This document shows positions 26,842 to 35,040 of a stretch of 64,000 nucleotides of DNA, piece after piece. The notes under the pieces are model-generated. The model searched no databases. It saw only the letters and a program-made list of their open reading frames with translations, and was not told the origin of the DNA. How positions within the stretch are numbered: position 1 is the stretch's first letter; the number at the start of each line of letters is the position of its first letter. The stretch comes from Planococcus sp. MSAK28401 (lineage in GTDB: Bacteria > Bacillota > Bacilli > Bacillales_A > Planococcaceae), in the NCBI RefSeq assembly GCF_018283455.1, contig NZ_JAAMTH010000001.1, positions 1,717,501 to 1,781,500 on the forward strand. Direction: 5' to 3'. A program made the translations under genes and the position numbers.

Positions 26842-26870
26842 TTGAAAGACAAATGCTAATTTCATAAAAC
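26842..26870 (+). promoter_or_regulatory. putative promoter of the TPP riboswitch transcript
   Basis: TTGAAA (26842-26847), 17-base spacer and TAAAAC (26865-26870) stand immediately upstream of the riboswitch. Confidence 0.45.
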
Positions 26871-26968
26871 ACATGTGGGGGAATCGGTGTTGCCGATTGA
26901 GAGAATATCCGTGAGATATTGACCCTTGGAACCTGAACTGGCTAATACCAGCGGAGGGAACATATTCA
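26871..26968 (+). ncRNA. TPP riboswitch (thi box)
   Basis: The conserved thi-box parts are all present: GGGGG after the first arm, CTGAGA-like GATTGAGAG and GTGAGATATTGACCC, then CCTTGGAACCTGAACTGG and CTAATACCAGCGGAGGGAA. The RNA binds thiamine pyrophosphate. The following hairpin should form the expression platform, so high thiamine pyrophosphate stops transcription of the thiamine transporter operon. Confidence 0.95.
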
Positions 26969-26992
26969 AATCGGTCTATTCTGCGATGATAT

Positions 26993-31858: not shown

Positions 31859-31900
31859 CTGCCGAGACGGAAATGCTTCCGTCCACGGCAGTTTTTTCTT
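31859..31900 (+). terminator. intrinsic terminator
   Basis: A nested hairpin (CTGCCG/CGGCAG outside, GACGGAA/TTCCGTC inside) with a run of six T, after the YwaF-type gene. Confidence 0.85.
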
Positions 31901-32045
31901 ACGATTAGTCAATAGTTTTTAATCAATTTCAAAGAGGTTTTTCCGTGAGGTCTTATCTTTTAGGAGGCGGAAATTAATCATAACTAAAAATAGGCATGCC
32001 AAAAAACCTCCGGCTTTTTCTTTTTTTTAGCAGGGGCAAAATGTG

Positions 32046-33278
32046 TTAAACTTTAGGTGCCACGGTACAGGGGCTTAGCCTGTAATCGTAGCGTAATTGG
32101 TGTGTGACCAAGTGGTGAATCGTTTTGAGCAGCTTGTTCATGCAGGCCACCACGGCAACCTTATGACATTTGTTATAAGGTTGTTTTTTTAATTTCTGAT
32201 AATAATCCACCAGGTGGTTCTGAGACAGGCGCTTCTGTTTAAGCATGTTCATAATGATAATGTAAAGCAGTTTGCGGAGGTGTTTGTTTCCGCGTTTATT
32301 GATGCGGTCCCTTGCGAGAAACTTACCGGATTGGTAACGGCGAATGTCGATGCCGGCAAAGGCATTCAACTGCTTATGATTCTCAAATCGCCCGATATCG
32401 CCAATCTCAGCTAGCAAGCGAACGGCGGTATTGTCTCCGATGCCTGGAATACTTAACAGAATGGCATACTCGTCCAACGGAGAAGCAAGCGCGGCCATTT
32501 TCTCGATACACGCCTCTTTCAGAAAGACAAGCTCCTGGAACCGCTTAGCGTACAGTCGAACCAGCTCACAAGCAAGGTCATCGACCTTTACCGCAGGGTA
32601 GGAACTATTGGCGGCATCCAGCAGTTGGATGGCTTTTTCTTCTGCTTTTTTAGTGGACGTTCGCTTTTCAGTATTGGCGAGAATCCGGTTTCTAAGCAAC
32701 GTTTTGGAGTTCCCTAACACGAGGTCGGGATGCGGAAACAACTGCACTAACCGAAGAAAGAGGTCCGATTTTGTCGTGAACAAGTCAGTCAGTTCCGGGA
32801 AAGTGAGCTGCAGTTCCGTGTGCAGACGTCCCCTGACGACGGCCAGCTCCGCATCCAGATCCGTGTAATGCCGGGATAGTTTCTTGAGTTGCCGGTAGAC
32901 ATCTAATGACGGTGTCTCCAGGCGACGTTCATTTTGGAAGTGGCTGCTTGCGAGCTGATGAGCGTCTGCGCGGTCCGTCTTATGTTTCCGCAACCGGTCA
33001 TTCTGCAGTTTGGCTTCCAGGGGATTCATCAGATAATACGGATAACTGTTTTCTTGCATGAAGCGTTCGAGTTGGCGTGAATAAACGCCGGTGGATTCAA
33101 ATACCAGGTGTGGCACCTCATCATAACCTGCGGTTAGGTCGTCAATCAGCAGCTTCAACGCAGCAAAATCTTCGCGCGTGTGCTGGATTTCTTTTTCAGC
33201 GATACAGGTTTTCAGCGCGTTATAGACCACAATATAGCTTTTCCCCATACTGACATCAAAAGCGATGACATGTTTCAT
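32046..33278 (-). CDS. IS110-family recombinase/transposase
   Basis: A 410-residue DEDD recombinase of the IS110 family. The N-terminal RuvC-like domain has IAFDVSMGKSYIVVYN (first Asp), HLVFESTGVYSRQL (Glu) and KTDRADAHQLA (Asp pair). The C-terminal domain has the helix-hairpin LSIPGIGDNTAVRLLAEIGD and the block FAGIDIRRYQSGK with the catalytic-type serine, then NKRGNKHLRKLLY. Full length; no frameshift. ATG 33278 follows AAGGAG eight bases upstream. These enzymes act with an element-encoded bridge RNA; see 33279-33465. Confidence 0.95.
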   Translation of the reverse strand: MKHVIAFDVSMGKSYIVVYNALKTCIAEKEIQHTREDFAALKLLIDDLTAGYDEVPHLVFESTGVYSRQLERFMQENSYPYYLMNPLEAKLQNDRLRKHKTDRADAHQLASSHFQNERRLETPSLDVYRQLKKLSRHYTDLDAELAVVRGRLHTELQLTFPELTDLFTTKSDLFLRLVQLFPHPDLVLGNSKTLLRNRILANTEKRTSTKKAEEKAIQLLDAANSSYPAVKVDDLACELVRLYAKRFQELVFLKEACIEKMAALASPLDEYAILLSIPGIGDNTAVRLLAEIGDIGRFENHKQLNAFAGIDIRRYQSGKFLARDRINKRGNKHLRKLLYIIIMNMLKQKRLSQNHLVDYYQKLKKQPYNKCHKVAVVACMNKLLKTIHHLVTHQLRYDYRLSPCTVAPKV

Positions 33279-33465
33279 CTCCCACACTCCTTCATTTTGA
33301 TTGGAAGCTTCACCGATCCTTACCGATTCCCATTTCTTCTACACGATCTCAATGGATCCCACATACTCAAACCTGATTCAGATAAGGTGGGTGAAGGAGG
33401 TCCGTTTTATTTACGGATTCAAGATCCCAAAACTGCCTCGACCTCCGCTTCACCTCTACTATAAA
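33279..33465 (-). ncRNA. candidate IS110 bridge-RNA leader
   Basis: The 187 bases directly upstream of the IS110 recombinase are non-coding and strongly structured. GGTGAAGGAGGTC at 33390-33402 pairs with GACCTCCGCTTCACC at 33440-33454, with an inner CCGT...ACGG hairpin. Known IS110 bridge RNAs lie in the same place and are of similar size (about 180 bases). No loop could be matched to a target or donor by eye, so this is a positional and structural call only. Confidence 0.45.
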
Positions 33466-33506
33466 AAAATAGTAGGACAAACCAATGCCTTGGTTCGTCC
33501 TACTAA
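33456..33506 (-). terminator. minus-strand terminator with alternative pairing
   Basis: On the minus strand TAGTAGGACGAACCAA pairs across a GGCA loop and is followed by seven T. The A-run side also forms CTACTAT/ATAGTAG (33456-33462 with 33469-33475), which competes for the same bases. It may insulate the IS110 gene from transcription entering from the right, or be left from an older gene. Confidence 0.6.
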
Positions 33507-33588
33507 TCTTAGTATGTTTTCTTTGCAATAGAGGACTATTTGCATATTTAGAGAATAAAGGGGGACATAGCGAAAGGGGTGGGGGGGA

Positions 33589-35040
33589 ATGGATTGGCTA
33601 GTCATACTGAGCTGGACCTTGAACTCTTTATTGTTGTTGAACATCGTGCTCGCACTTATCATCATCTTCAATGAACGGCGGGATGCAGGGGCTACGTGGG
33701 CATGGCTGTTGATTTTGTTTTTCTTGCCGATTCTCGGATTTATCGTCTATTTGTTTTTCGGGAGGCATTTAACGAACAAAAACTTCTACAATTTAAGTGA
33801 AGATGAACAATCCTATTACACGCGCCAAGTCGATTCTCAAGTCCAGCGCATACGGGCAGGGGAAGCGGAGTATGATGAAGAGCTGCTGAACAAATACGAG
33901 CAATTGCTAATCATGAATTTACAGTCTTCCAAATCACTCGTCAGTTTCTACAACGAAACCCGGATATTCTCTGAAGGCAATGAGAAATTCGACACGATGA
34001 TCGAAGACATCAGCCATGCGCAGGAAGAAGTCAATGTCCAATACTACATCATCAAGCGGGATGCGCTCGGCCAGCGGCTTTTCGATGCCTTGCTCGAGCG
34101 GGCCAAGGCAGGAGTCAAGATACGTCTCCTATACGATGCAGTCGGATCGAAGAGTTTAAAACAATCGGATTTTAAGGAATTGATCGAATATGGCGGCGAA
34201 GTGGAAATCTTTTTTCCGTCCAAATGGGGAATCAATTTCCGCCTCAATAACCGCAACCACCGGAAAGTGTGCATCATTGACGGGAAAACCAGCTATATCG
34301 GCGGGTTCAATGTTGGGACGGAATACTTAGGGGAAGTGGAGAAGTTTGGCTATTGGCGCGATGTCCATTTGCGCATAGAAGGGGATGTCGTCCAACACAT
34401 CCAGGACCGTTTCGTATTGGACTGGAACTATGCCAACCAGTATAAGAGCCGTGATGACATCTTCTGTTTTCCCACGCACCAAATCAGGAACTTTTCGCCG
34501 ATGCAAATCGTCACGAGCGGGCCGAATTCCGATACAGAGCATTTGAAAAACATGAAAATTAAAATGATTTCTTCGGCAAAGCGAGAAATCTACATCCAGA
34601 CGCCGTATTTCATTCCGGACAAAAGTTTTATGGACGCCTGTAAAATGGCTTTGCTGAGCGGTGTTAAAATGAGTATCATGATTCCAGGAAAGCCTGACCA
34701 TCCCTTTGTCATGTGGGGATCGTGGTCGTTCCTCGGCGAGTTGCTCGATTACGGGGCGGACGTTTATCTTTACGATCGCGGCTTTTTGCACGCCAAGACG
34801 ATGACCGTGGACGGCGAGATTTCAACTGTCGGGACCACCAACCTCGATGCCCGCAGCTTCCGACTGAATTTCGAAATTAATACGCTCGTGTTCAACCGCC
34901 GGATTGCGCTCGAACTGGAGTCCTTGTTTGAGTCGGATACAGCCGATTGCCGAAAATTGACGAAAGAACTCTACGCAGAGCGCGATTGGACCATCAAGCT
35001 GCGCGAAGGATTTGCCCGCTTATTGAGCCCAATCTTGTAA
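33589..35040 (+). CDS. cls: cardiolipin synthase
   Basis: A 483-residue membrane-anchored phospholipase-D-type enzyme that joins two phosphatidylglycerols into cardiolipin. Two N-terminal membrane helices (residues about 2-22 and 33-52, with TWAWLLILFFLPILGFIVYL) are followed by two HxK motifs: HRKVCIIDGKTSYIGGFN (His at about 224) and HAKTMTVDGEISTVGTTNLD (His at about 401). Length and order are standard. GGGGTGGGGGGG precedes the ATG. Confidence 0.95.
   Translation: MDWLVILSWTLNSLLLLNIVLALIIIFNERRDAGATWAWLLILFFLPILGFIVYLFFGRHLTNKNFYNLSEDEQSYYTRQVDSQVQRIRAGEAEYDEELLNKYEQLLIMNLQSSKSLVSFYNETRIFSEGNEKFDTMIEDISHAQEEVNVQYYIIKRDALGQRLFDALLERAKAGVKIRLLYDAVGSKSLKQSDFKELIEYGGEVEIFFPSKWGINFRLNNRNHRKVCIIDGKTSYIGGFNVGTEYLGEVEKFGYWRDVHLRIEGDVVQHIQDRFVLDWNYANQYKSRDDIFCFPTHQIRNFSPMQIVTSGPNSDTEHLKNMKIKMISSAKREIYIQTPYFIPDKSFMDACKMALLSGVKMSIMIPGKPDHPFVMWGSWSFLGELLDYGADVYLYDRGFLHAKTMTVDGEISTVGTTNLDARSFRLNFEINTLVFNRRIALELESLFESDTADCRKLTKELYAERDWTIKLREGFARLLSPIL

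Follow-up and report, generated by a model that had tools for sequence, protein, structure and literature searches.

Probable bridge RNA of a Planococcus IS110-type element, with reversed guide order and terminator targets

On the minus strand of the window (the whole 64,000-nucleotide stretch of the Planococcus sp. MSAK28401 genome analysed here), an IS110-type recombinase gene is preceded by a structured leader, and the question raised by this locus is whether that leader guides the recombinase to DNA, and if so to which DNA and in what arrangement. The initial annotation took it for a bridge RNA, a call that is supported by the fold, the guide/target covariation and the donor match described below. 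We put at about 0.93 the probability that the leader acts as bridge RNA for a mobile IS110-type element, with reversed loops, terminator targets, junction-driven expression and recombination at an AA core.

The gene (32046-33278, minus strand, ATG at 33278) encodes a recombinase of 410 aa with profile matches to DEDD_Tnp_IS110 and Transposase_20; PF01548 and PF02371 are above cut-off, and NF033542 scores 193.6 bits against a cut-off of 140. Residues E61, D102, D105 and S317 align with IS621, and D8 was placed by eye. The protein has both the DEDD RuvC-like domain and the Transposase_20 domain with its catalytic serine by which the IS110 family is recognised.

The element exists in three copies genome-wide (L001, L002 and L003) that show no internal difference and have different flanks. 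Because the flanks of the identical copies diverge there, the ends could be fixed at 31898 and 33517, not counting the core dinucleotide, with ACATACTAAG as the left end and CGTAAG as the right end. Copies in relatives refined this register (left end ACATACTAA(G/C)ATTAG, right end usually CGTAAG) and placed the core dinucleotide, AA on the minus strand, at 33518-33519 for the left copy and 31896-31897 for the right copy. Copies in which the right flank holds only AA, among them L095 and L106, settled this register; in one relative (L092), GA stands in place of AA at the right core. Between guide match and core, the spacing within the A-run differs by 0-2 nt from copy to copy, also where copies share an identical or almost identical guide (L095-L102 and L115-L118), so the cut may slip within A-runs. 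From the left end to the ATG there are 239 nt, and the non-coding end on the opposite side of the gene measures 148 nt and gave no match to the RNA model. Near the ends of the window copy, TAAGATTAGT on the left and TACGATTAGT, the right-hand sequence in reverse complement, share 9 of 10 bases, and this inverted repeat is lost in relatives with right ends GGAGGTAAG or AGTGGTAAG. The element so delimited includes the leader region, so its ends leave the bridge-RNA call standing. The extent first proposed for the feature, 33279-33506, had the right region but stopped short, since the leader reaches to the element end at 33517.

For the comparisons that follow, 70 copies were assembled. Their right ends were found via a search for a TTGACT/TTGATT motif with at most 4 changes allowed, which gave a right end in 65 of the 70; 61 copies have both ends and a readable guide, with 22 distinct 5' guides.

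Library models could not settle the bridge-RNA call, because Rfam has no match to the leader at gathering score, the window's one such match being a TPP riboswitch elsewhere. A search of 33200-33600 at relaxed thresholds returned seven matches far below gathering (best E 0.0077, a microRNA family), which we took as chance. The folding energy of the single sequence is likewise unremarkable (33470-33288, z -0.99, with 36 of 200 shuffles equally good), and single-sequence folding of both strands was non-distinctive and was dropped as evidence. The case for a structured RNA is carried by comparison. We aligned 35 distinct leaders, wrote down a structure under the guidance of RNAalifold and counted its 42 pairs: 98.8% of cells are standard-paired, and each of seven helices is kept in at least 96.6% of cells. 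Changes on both sides occur in 13 of the 42 pairs, against 4.6 ± 1.3 in shuffled alignments, none of 500 of which reaches this count, and no more than 5 with the partners slid. Covariation among copies, the absence of which the initial annotation had named as fatal to its reading, was thus found in the stems (these 13 pairs) and also, as set out below, between guide and target.

Read on the minus strand, the leader runs from a 5' stem-loop through a target loop to a donor loop. The 5' stem-loop (33470-33505), whose helix 1 covaries, forms a terminator-like hairpin together with the T-run at 33463-33469. The stem of the target-binding loop is built from a 5' arm GGTGAAGCGGAGGTC (33440-33454) and a 3' arm GACCTCCTTCACC (33390-33402), with an apical hairpin at 33415-33427, and both the stem and the apical hairpin entered the covariation analysis. 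This is the strong stem that had been claimed before the recombinase, present on the plus strand as GGTGAAGGAGGTC at 33390-33402 and GACCTCCGCTTCACC at 33440-33454. The donor-binding loop and its closing stem ACCUUAU/GGUAAGG occupy 33318-33388 and entered the covariation analysis as helices 5-7. The minus-strand terminator at which the leader had been said to end is real as a structure, a 16-pair hairpin at 33505-33470 followed by TTTTTTT, but it lies at the 5' end of the leader and not at the end of the RNA; it sits inside the element, upstream of the target loop. Close to the leader's 3' end, at 33303-33314, GGTGAAG duplicates the sequence of the target stem's 5' arm, and the leader alignment has GTGAAG or something close to it at this position; from its sequence, this repeat could compete for the partner of the target stem.

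The loops expected to recognise target and donor somewhere within 33300-33440 could be located there, each with two guides. In the target loop, the 5' side GGCAGUUUU (33429-33437) is complementary to the top strand of the right target flank AAAACTGCC, and the 3' side UAAAUAAAAC (33404-33413) has the sense of the left flank, so it pairs with the bottom strand. Comparison of the 61 copies and 22 guides bears this out, in that the variable loop sides match the flanks of their own insertion. Between the reverse complement of the 5' guide and its own right flank, the mean longest match is 7.44, against 3.45 for the flanks of other copies (0 of 20000 permutations), and between the 3' guide and its own left flank it is 4.47, against 3.80 (0 of 20000); these permutations count related guides as independent. 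The same 61 copies gave null results for an IS621-like assignment of the guides (1457 and 7740 of 20000 permutations) and for a sense control (14738 of 20000). A perfect 5'-guide match of at least 5 bases is present in 56 of the 61 copies and one of at least 6 bases in 49; the five copies with fewer than 5 matching bases are L072, L091, L097, L107 and L119. Guide and flank change together from GGCAGUUUU with AAAACTGCC in the window to CGTGTTTC with GAAACACG in L064, GCGGACGC with GCGTCCGC in L126 and GTATGCT with AGCATAC in L073. The 3' guide finds a full TAAATAAA match in the left flank of L003, and one mismatch (AAATAAA versus AAAGAAA) at the window copy and at L002, which leaves a longest perfect match of 3 at the window copy.

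On the donor side, the 5' guide GAGUAUGU (33361-33368) contains AGUAUGU, complementary to the element's own left end ACATACT, a pairing that RNAalifold proposed unprompted. Covariation here amounts to a single double change, in L088; in two rows the guide has changed and ACATACT has not. The 3' donor guide GUAGAAGAAA (33333-33342) partially matches the right end CGTAAG-AA; the match is weak in the window copy, and most of the leaders printed have UAAGAAA on this side.

Two observations on individual copies concern the same loops. In L120 (G146), the 5' guide of the target loop is deleted, GCCGACC being joined to TGGGATC, and the recombinase frame has a stop; by its sequence, this copy reads as a bridge RNA without its guide. 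L065 (Niallia taxi) and L092 are related elements with nearly identical flanks, and their guides match the site; the joined flanks of L065, read across, encode EVEILKKAMAIF, which we take to resemble OrfA of an IS3-type transposase.

When guide order is measured in one frame for all elements, the direction of the recombinase gene, the window element is reversed: the longest match is 9 in the reversed versus 3 in the canonical assignment for the 5' target guide, and 7 versus 3 for the 5' donor guide. Elements of two other species show the same order. In the element of L. plantarum (L136), the target loop is reversed (9 and 8 versus 3 and 5), as is the 5' donor guide (7 versus 4), the 3' donor side being uninformative; in S. 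suis (L135), the 5' target guide, the only guide tested there, is reversed. Copies from L. crispatus were left out of the target-order analysis, their right ends not being fixed. In IS621 of E. coli, the left flank ends with ATCAGGCCT and the 5' guide is ATCGGGCCT, the same sense and hence the canonical order, and its 5' donor guide, ACAGTATC, agrees with the right end over 8 bases in the canonical assignment versus 3 in the reversed. The IS621 target contrast is small by longest perfect match (5 and 5 canonical, 4 and 4 reversed) because of a mismatch in its guide. The sister elements L144, L145 and L146 are also canonical, with 8 versus 3-4 for the 5' target guide and 7 versus 2-3 for the 5' donor guide: the 5' guide repeats GCACCCGT or TCCTGCCC of the left flank, and the 5' donor guide repeats GCTGGTT of the right end. 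The core of this sister subfamily is TT by eye, i.e., AA on the other strand.

Could the reversal be an artefact of mis-assigned ends or of the direction of reading? The core lies within A-runs, where the cut can be placed only to within one or two bases, and the IS621 target contrast is as small as given above, although its 5' donor guide is clear. Against this stand the 1.6 kb of element that separate the left and right flanks, the canonical tests that were null where both reversed tests gave 0 of 20000, and the canonical order that the same method yields for three sister elements; the published IS621 rule is also the canonical order, the 5' side pairing the bottom strand and the 3' side the top strand (PMC11208160). 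Of all the alternatives, we give this one the least credence. Hardly more credible is the view that the leader has no guide role and acts only as an IS 5' terminator, attenuating or insulating transcription of the recombinase gene. The strong hairpin and T-run would fit, and 5' terminators upstream of transposases have been described as a class, the proposed "mobile attenuators" that block read-in transcription (Naville and Gautheret 2010, PMC2965389); in both cases, a terminator lies upstream of a transposase gene and is thought to block read-in. This account leaves unexplained why the variable loop matches its own insertion site across 22 guides and why the donor loop matches the element's end, and the window hairpin differs from that class in also being the 5' part of a guide-RNA leader, predicted to be truncated when transcription starts from the junction. 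The guide/target covariation argues against attenuation as the sole function, and the leader may act as a terminator in addition.

A more serious, though still unlikely, alternative is that the element is a member of the IS1111 group whose RNA has moved upstream of the gene. The published account of IS1111 elements (ISEc11, ISPa11 and ISKpn4; Siddiquee et al. 2024, PMC11187229) describes seekRNAs in which the complement of the top strand comes first, as it does in the window, usually encoded downstream of the gene with a few exceptions that have an upstream non-coding region, together with a transposase of 330-350 aa and sub-terminal inverted repeats of 11-13 bp that are perfect or nearly so. 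The 9/10 end repeat TAAGATTAGT/TACGATTAGT, short and imperfect, would fit this affiliation. Yet the window recombinase is longer, at 410 aa, its non-coding region lies upstream, relatives that end on the right in GGAGGTAAG or AGTGGTAAG have lost the end repeat, and the canonical order in the sister subfamily makes the reversal look local. The recombinase is about 31% identical to this subfamily (Alkalihalophilus, Cytobacillus, Niallia, Peribacillus), and a tree of 30 recombinases, from which Niallia was left out, joined the sister subfamily (Alkalihalophilus, Cytobacillus, Peribacillus) to the window clade with support 99/98. L147, presumed from its length to be an IS1111 reference, could not be placed in this tree, and it and IS621 are only loosely attached on long branches.

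The window element departs from the IS621 type in guide order and from IS1111 in the location of the RNA and the length of the protein; we class it as a bridge-RNA element of the IS110 family, broadly defined. With IS621 (Durrant et al. 2024, PMC11208160; Hiraizumi et al. 2024, PMC11208158) the element shares the RNA upstream of the recombinase, the succession of 5' stem-loop, target loop and donor loop with two guides per loop, the catalytic residues and insertion into extragenic repeats, and it may share the junction promoter as well. It differs in that the 5' side of its loops would pair with the top strand and not the bottom, in its core (AA versus CT) and in the length of its recombinase (410 versus 326 aa). 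From the sister subfamily (L138, L144, L145 and L146), which has an upstream RNA, a similar leader layout and the position of nearest sister in the sampled tree, it differs in guide order, canonical in the three elements tested there. Neither the reversed guide order nor the upstream RNA is new alone. The simplest reading is that the RNA-plus-gene cassette of the window clade was inverted relative to the ends.

Where does such an RNA send the element? The window copy lies in the T-tract of an intrinsic terminator behind a TMEM164-like gene (31859-31897, plus strand), and the hairpin and six T (31892-31897) were left on the target side by the insertion. Each of the three host copies has gone into the T-tract of a terminator-like hairpin; the strongest hairpins that end at the insertion points have energies of -21.5, -14.2 and -18.8 kcal/mol. 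A terminator-like hairpin ending at most 8 nt from the insertion is found for 18 of 60 copies, the host three included, versus 48 of 1824 control windows, and any terminator-like hairpin in the stretch for 43 of 60 versus 535 of 1824; the control windows come from the same loci and overlap one another. The 18 terminator-sited copies come from 14 genomes or records and have 14 different 5' guides. The other 42 fail this hairpin test, and several of them aim at dispersed repeats. Among thirteen strong matches to the neighbouring gene besides the host's own, all eight genus relatives examined lack the element at the window site, and in these eight the hairpin and T-run are kept, by eye, between the same two genes. 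AAAACTGCC occurs 73 times in the host genome, three bridge RNA genes included, against 96 for a control read backwards; followed by GGCAG within 30 bases, it gives 13 matches at 9 places, against 2 in the control. Terminators are a minority of the bare AAAACTGCC matches because few are followed by GGCAG, and the A-rich left guide probably supplies the remaining specificity for terminators. On this sequence evidence, the guide is aimed at intrinsic terminators behind genes.

In the copies of five genomes (G115, G186, G185, G034 and G011), the right flank reads AAAGCGTC(C/T)... and is mostly a GC-rich repeat, CCGCGGAAAGCGTCCGC, which means that the window clade also exploits dispersed repeats. 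A 2006 paper (PMC1525189) reportedly treats REP sequences as IS targets. Among the openly accessible published papers covered by our literature search, by title and opening of the abstract, and in the papers cited here, there was no report of terminators as IS110 targets nor of this combination of guide order and RNA location.

How the leader would be transcribed is suggested by the two ends. A candidate -35 box TTGACT (31907-31912, minus strand) lies at the right end and a candidate -10 box TAAGAT (33506-33511, minus strand) at the left, and when the ends are joined they are 17 nt apart, which would make a promoter that exists only at the junction. TTGACT/TTGATT is found in 65 of 70 copies, a count to be read with the fact that the right ends were themselves searched with this motif, and the joined ends read TTGACT-17-TAAGAT or TTGACT-17-TAACAT in the eight elements printed. 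Transcription from this promoter is predicted to start near 33499, at a point six bases into the stem of the 5' hairpin, by analogy with the distance between the RNA start and the -10 box of IS621; the IS621 sequence itself was inspected, and the position of its RNA start is assumed.

This start would divide two kinds of transcript. A transcript reading in from outside has 16 pairs beside seven T (computed, -24.1 kcal/mol), and one started at the junction loses the six pairs next to the T-run (computed, -13.1), whereupon CUACUAU can pair with AUAGUAG. The alternative hairpin so formed, CUACUAU(U-run)AUAGUAG at 33456-33475 on the minus strand, is a possible anti-terminator; it pairs in 98.1% of cells and shows no covariation. 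Its pairing was reached in 20 to 264 of 500 mononucleotide shuffles in ten elements, and for the refolding helix under dinucleotide shuffles the counts were 85 of 2000 in the window element, 53 of 2000 in L. plantarum and 135 to 1657 of 2000 in the other nine, so that we see in it a weak hint of anti-termination. A hairpin whose base lies upstream of the predicted start, with a T-run, is also present, in different sequence, in three Lactobacillaceae relatives and in Alkalihalophilus, Cytobacillus and Niallia; this start-straddling layout was not found in IS621 or Peribacillus. If the choice of start site gates termination in this way, the element would be silent while integrated and expressed only when excised. 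This model, of a cassette turned around in a clade of Bacilli IS110 elements whose 5' hairpin became a start-site-gated terminator, is tentative, and we rate it at somewhat less than even odds.

Taken together, these features suggest the following cycle for the bridge-RNA element. Upon excision, the right and left ends would be joined in a circle, the joint forming the promoter TTGACT, 17 nt, TAAGAT, from which leader and recombinase would be transcribed. The RNA would fold into 5' stem-loop, target-binding loop and donor-binding loop and be bound by the recombinase; its 5' guide GGCAGUUUU would pair with the top strand to the right of the AA core and its 3' guide UAAAUAAAAC with the bottom strand to the left, and in the donor loop AGUAUGU would pair with the left end and the 3' side with the right end, whereupon the recombinase would join both DNAs at the AA core. 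The guide would fit a stem arm plus the T-tract of intrinsic terminators with a CTGCC/GGCAG stem, and for that reason the element would land behind genes. Once it is integrated, read-in transcripts would form the whole 5' hairpin and stop, and junction transcripts, which have no stem base, would refold and continue.

Bridge RNAs are under development as programmable recombination tools, and the combination of reversed order and upstream RNA, next to a canonical sister subfamily, allows a natural comparison of how the order changed and of whether a single protein fold can serve both orders. The IS621 work proposes that the RNA has moved between the ends of elements (PMC11208160), and the window clade bears on that proposal. 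With 22 natural guides and their targets, a retargeting series for Gram-positive bacteria is already available, and targets in terminator T-tracts suggest a way for such elements to spread without much damage to their host.

A search with the RNA model gave matches at E <= 1e-4 in 130 of 261 genomes, a figure that includes weak matches and is not a count of elements; none of the phage records matched the leader. Free-standing bridge RNAs were considered and rejected. Three extra model matches in the host genome are the palindromic hairpin read on the other strand, and 14 further stretches examined were taken as cut or decayed copies, about eight of them ending at a contig end, four (L191, L193, L195 and L196) having recombinase remnants and one (L194) having a shortened leader with no recombinase remnant in the stretch. 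In E. coli, the IS621 copies L133 (1971-2139) and L134 have a 72-bp tandem duplication at the left end. At its inner joint, the left target guide of the RNA itself, TATCGGGCCT, runs into a new left end; recombination of the element into the DNA of its own guide could leave such a joint. The TPP riboswitch of the window lies at 26867-26976 on the plus strand, and the reading frames after it look, by eye, like parts of an ABC transporter.
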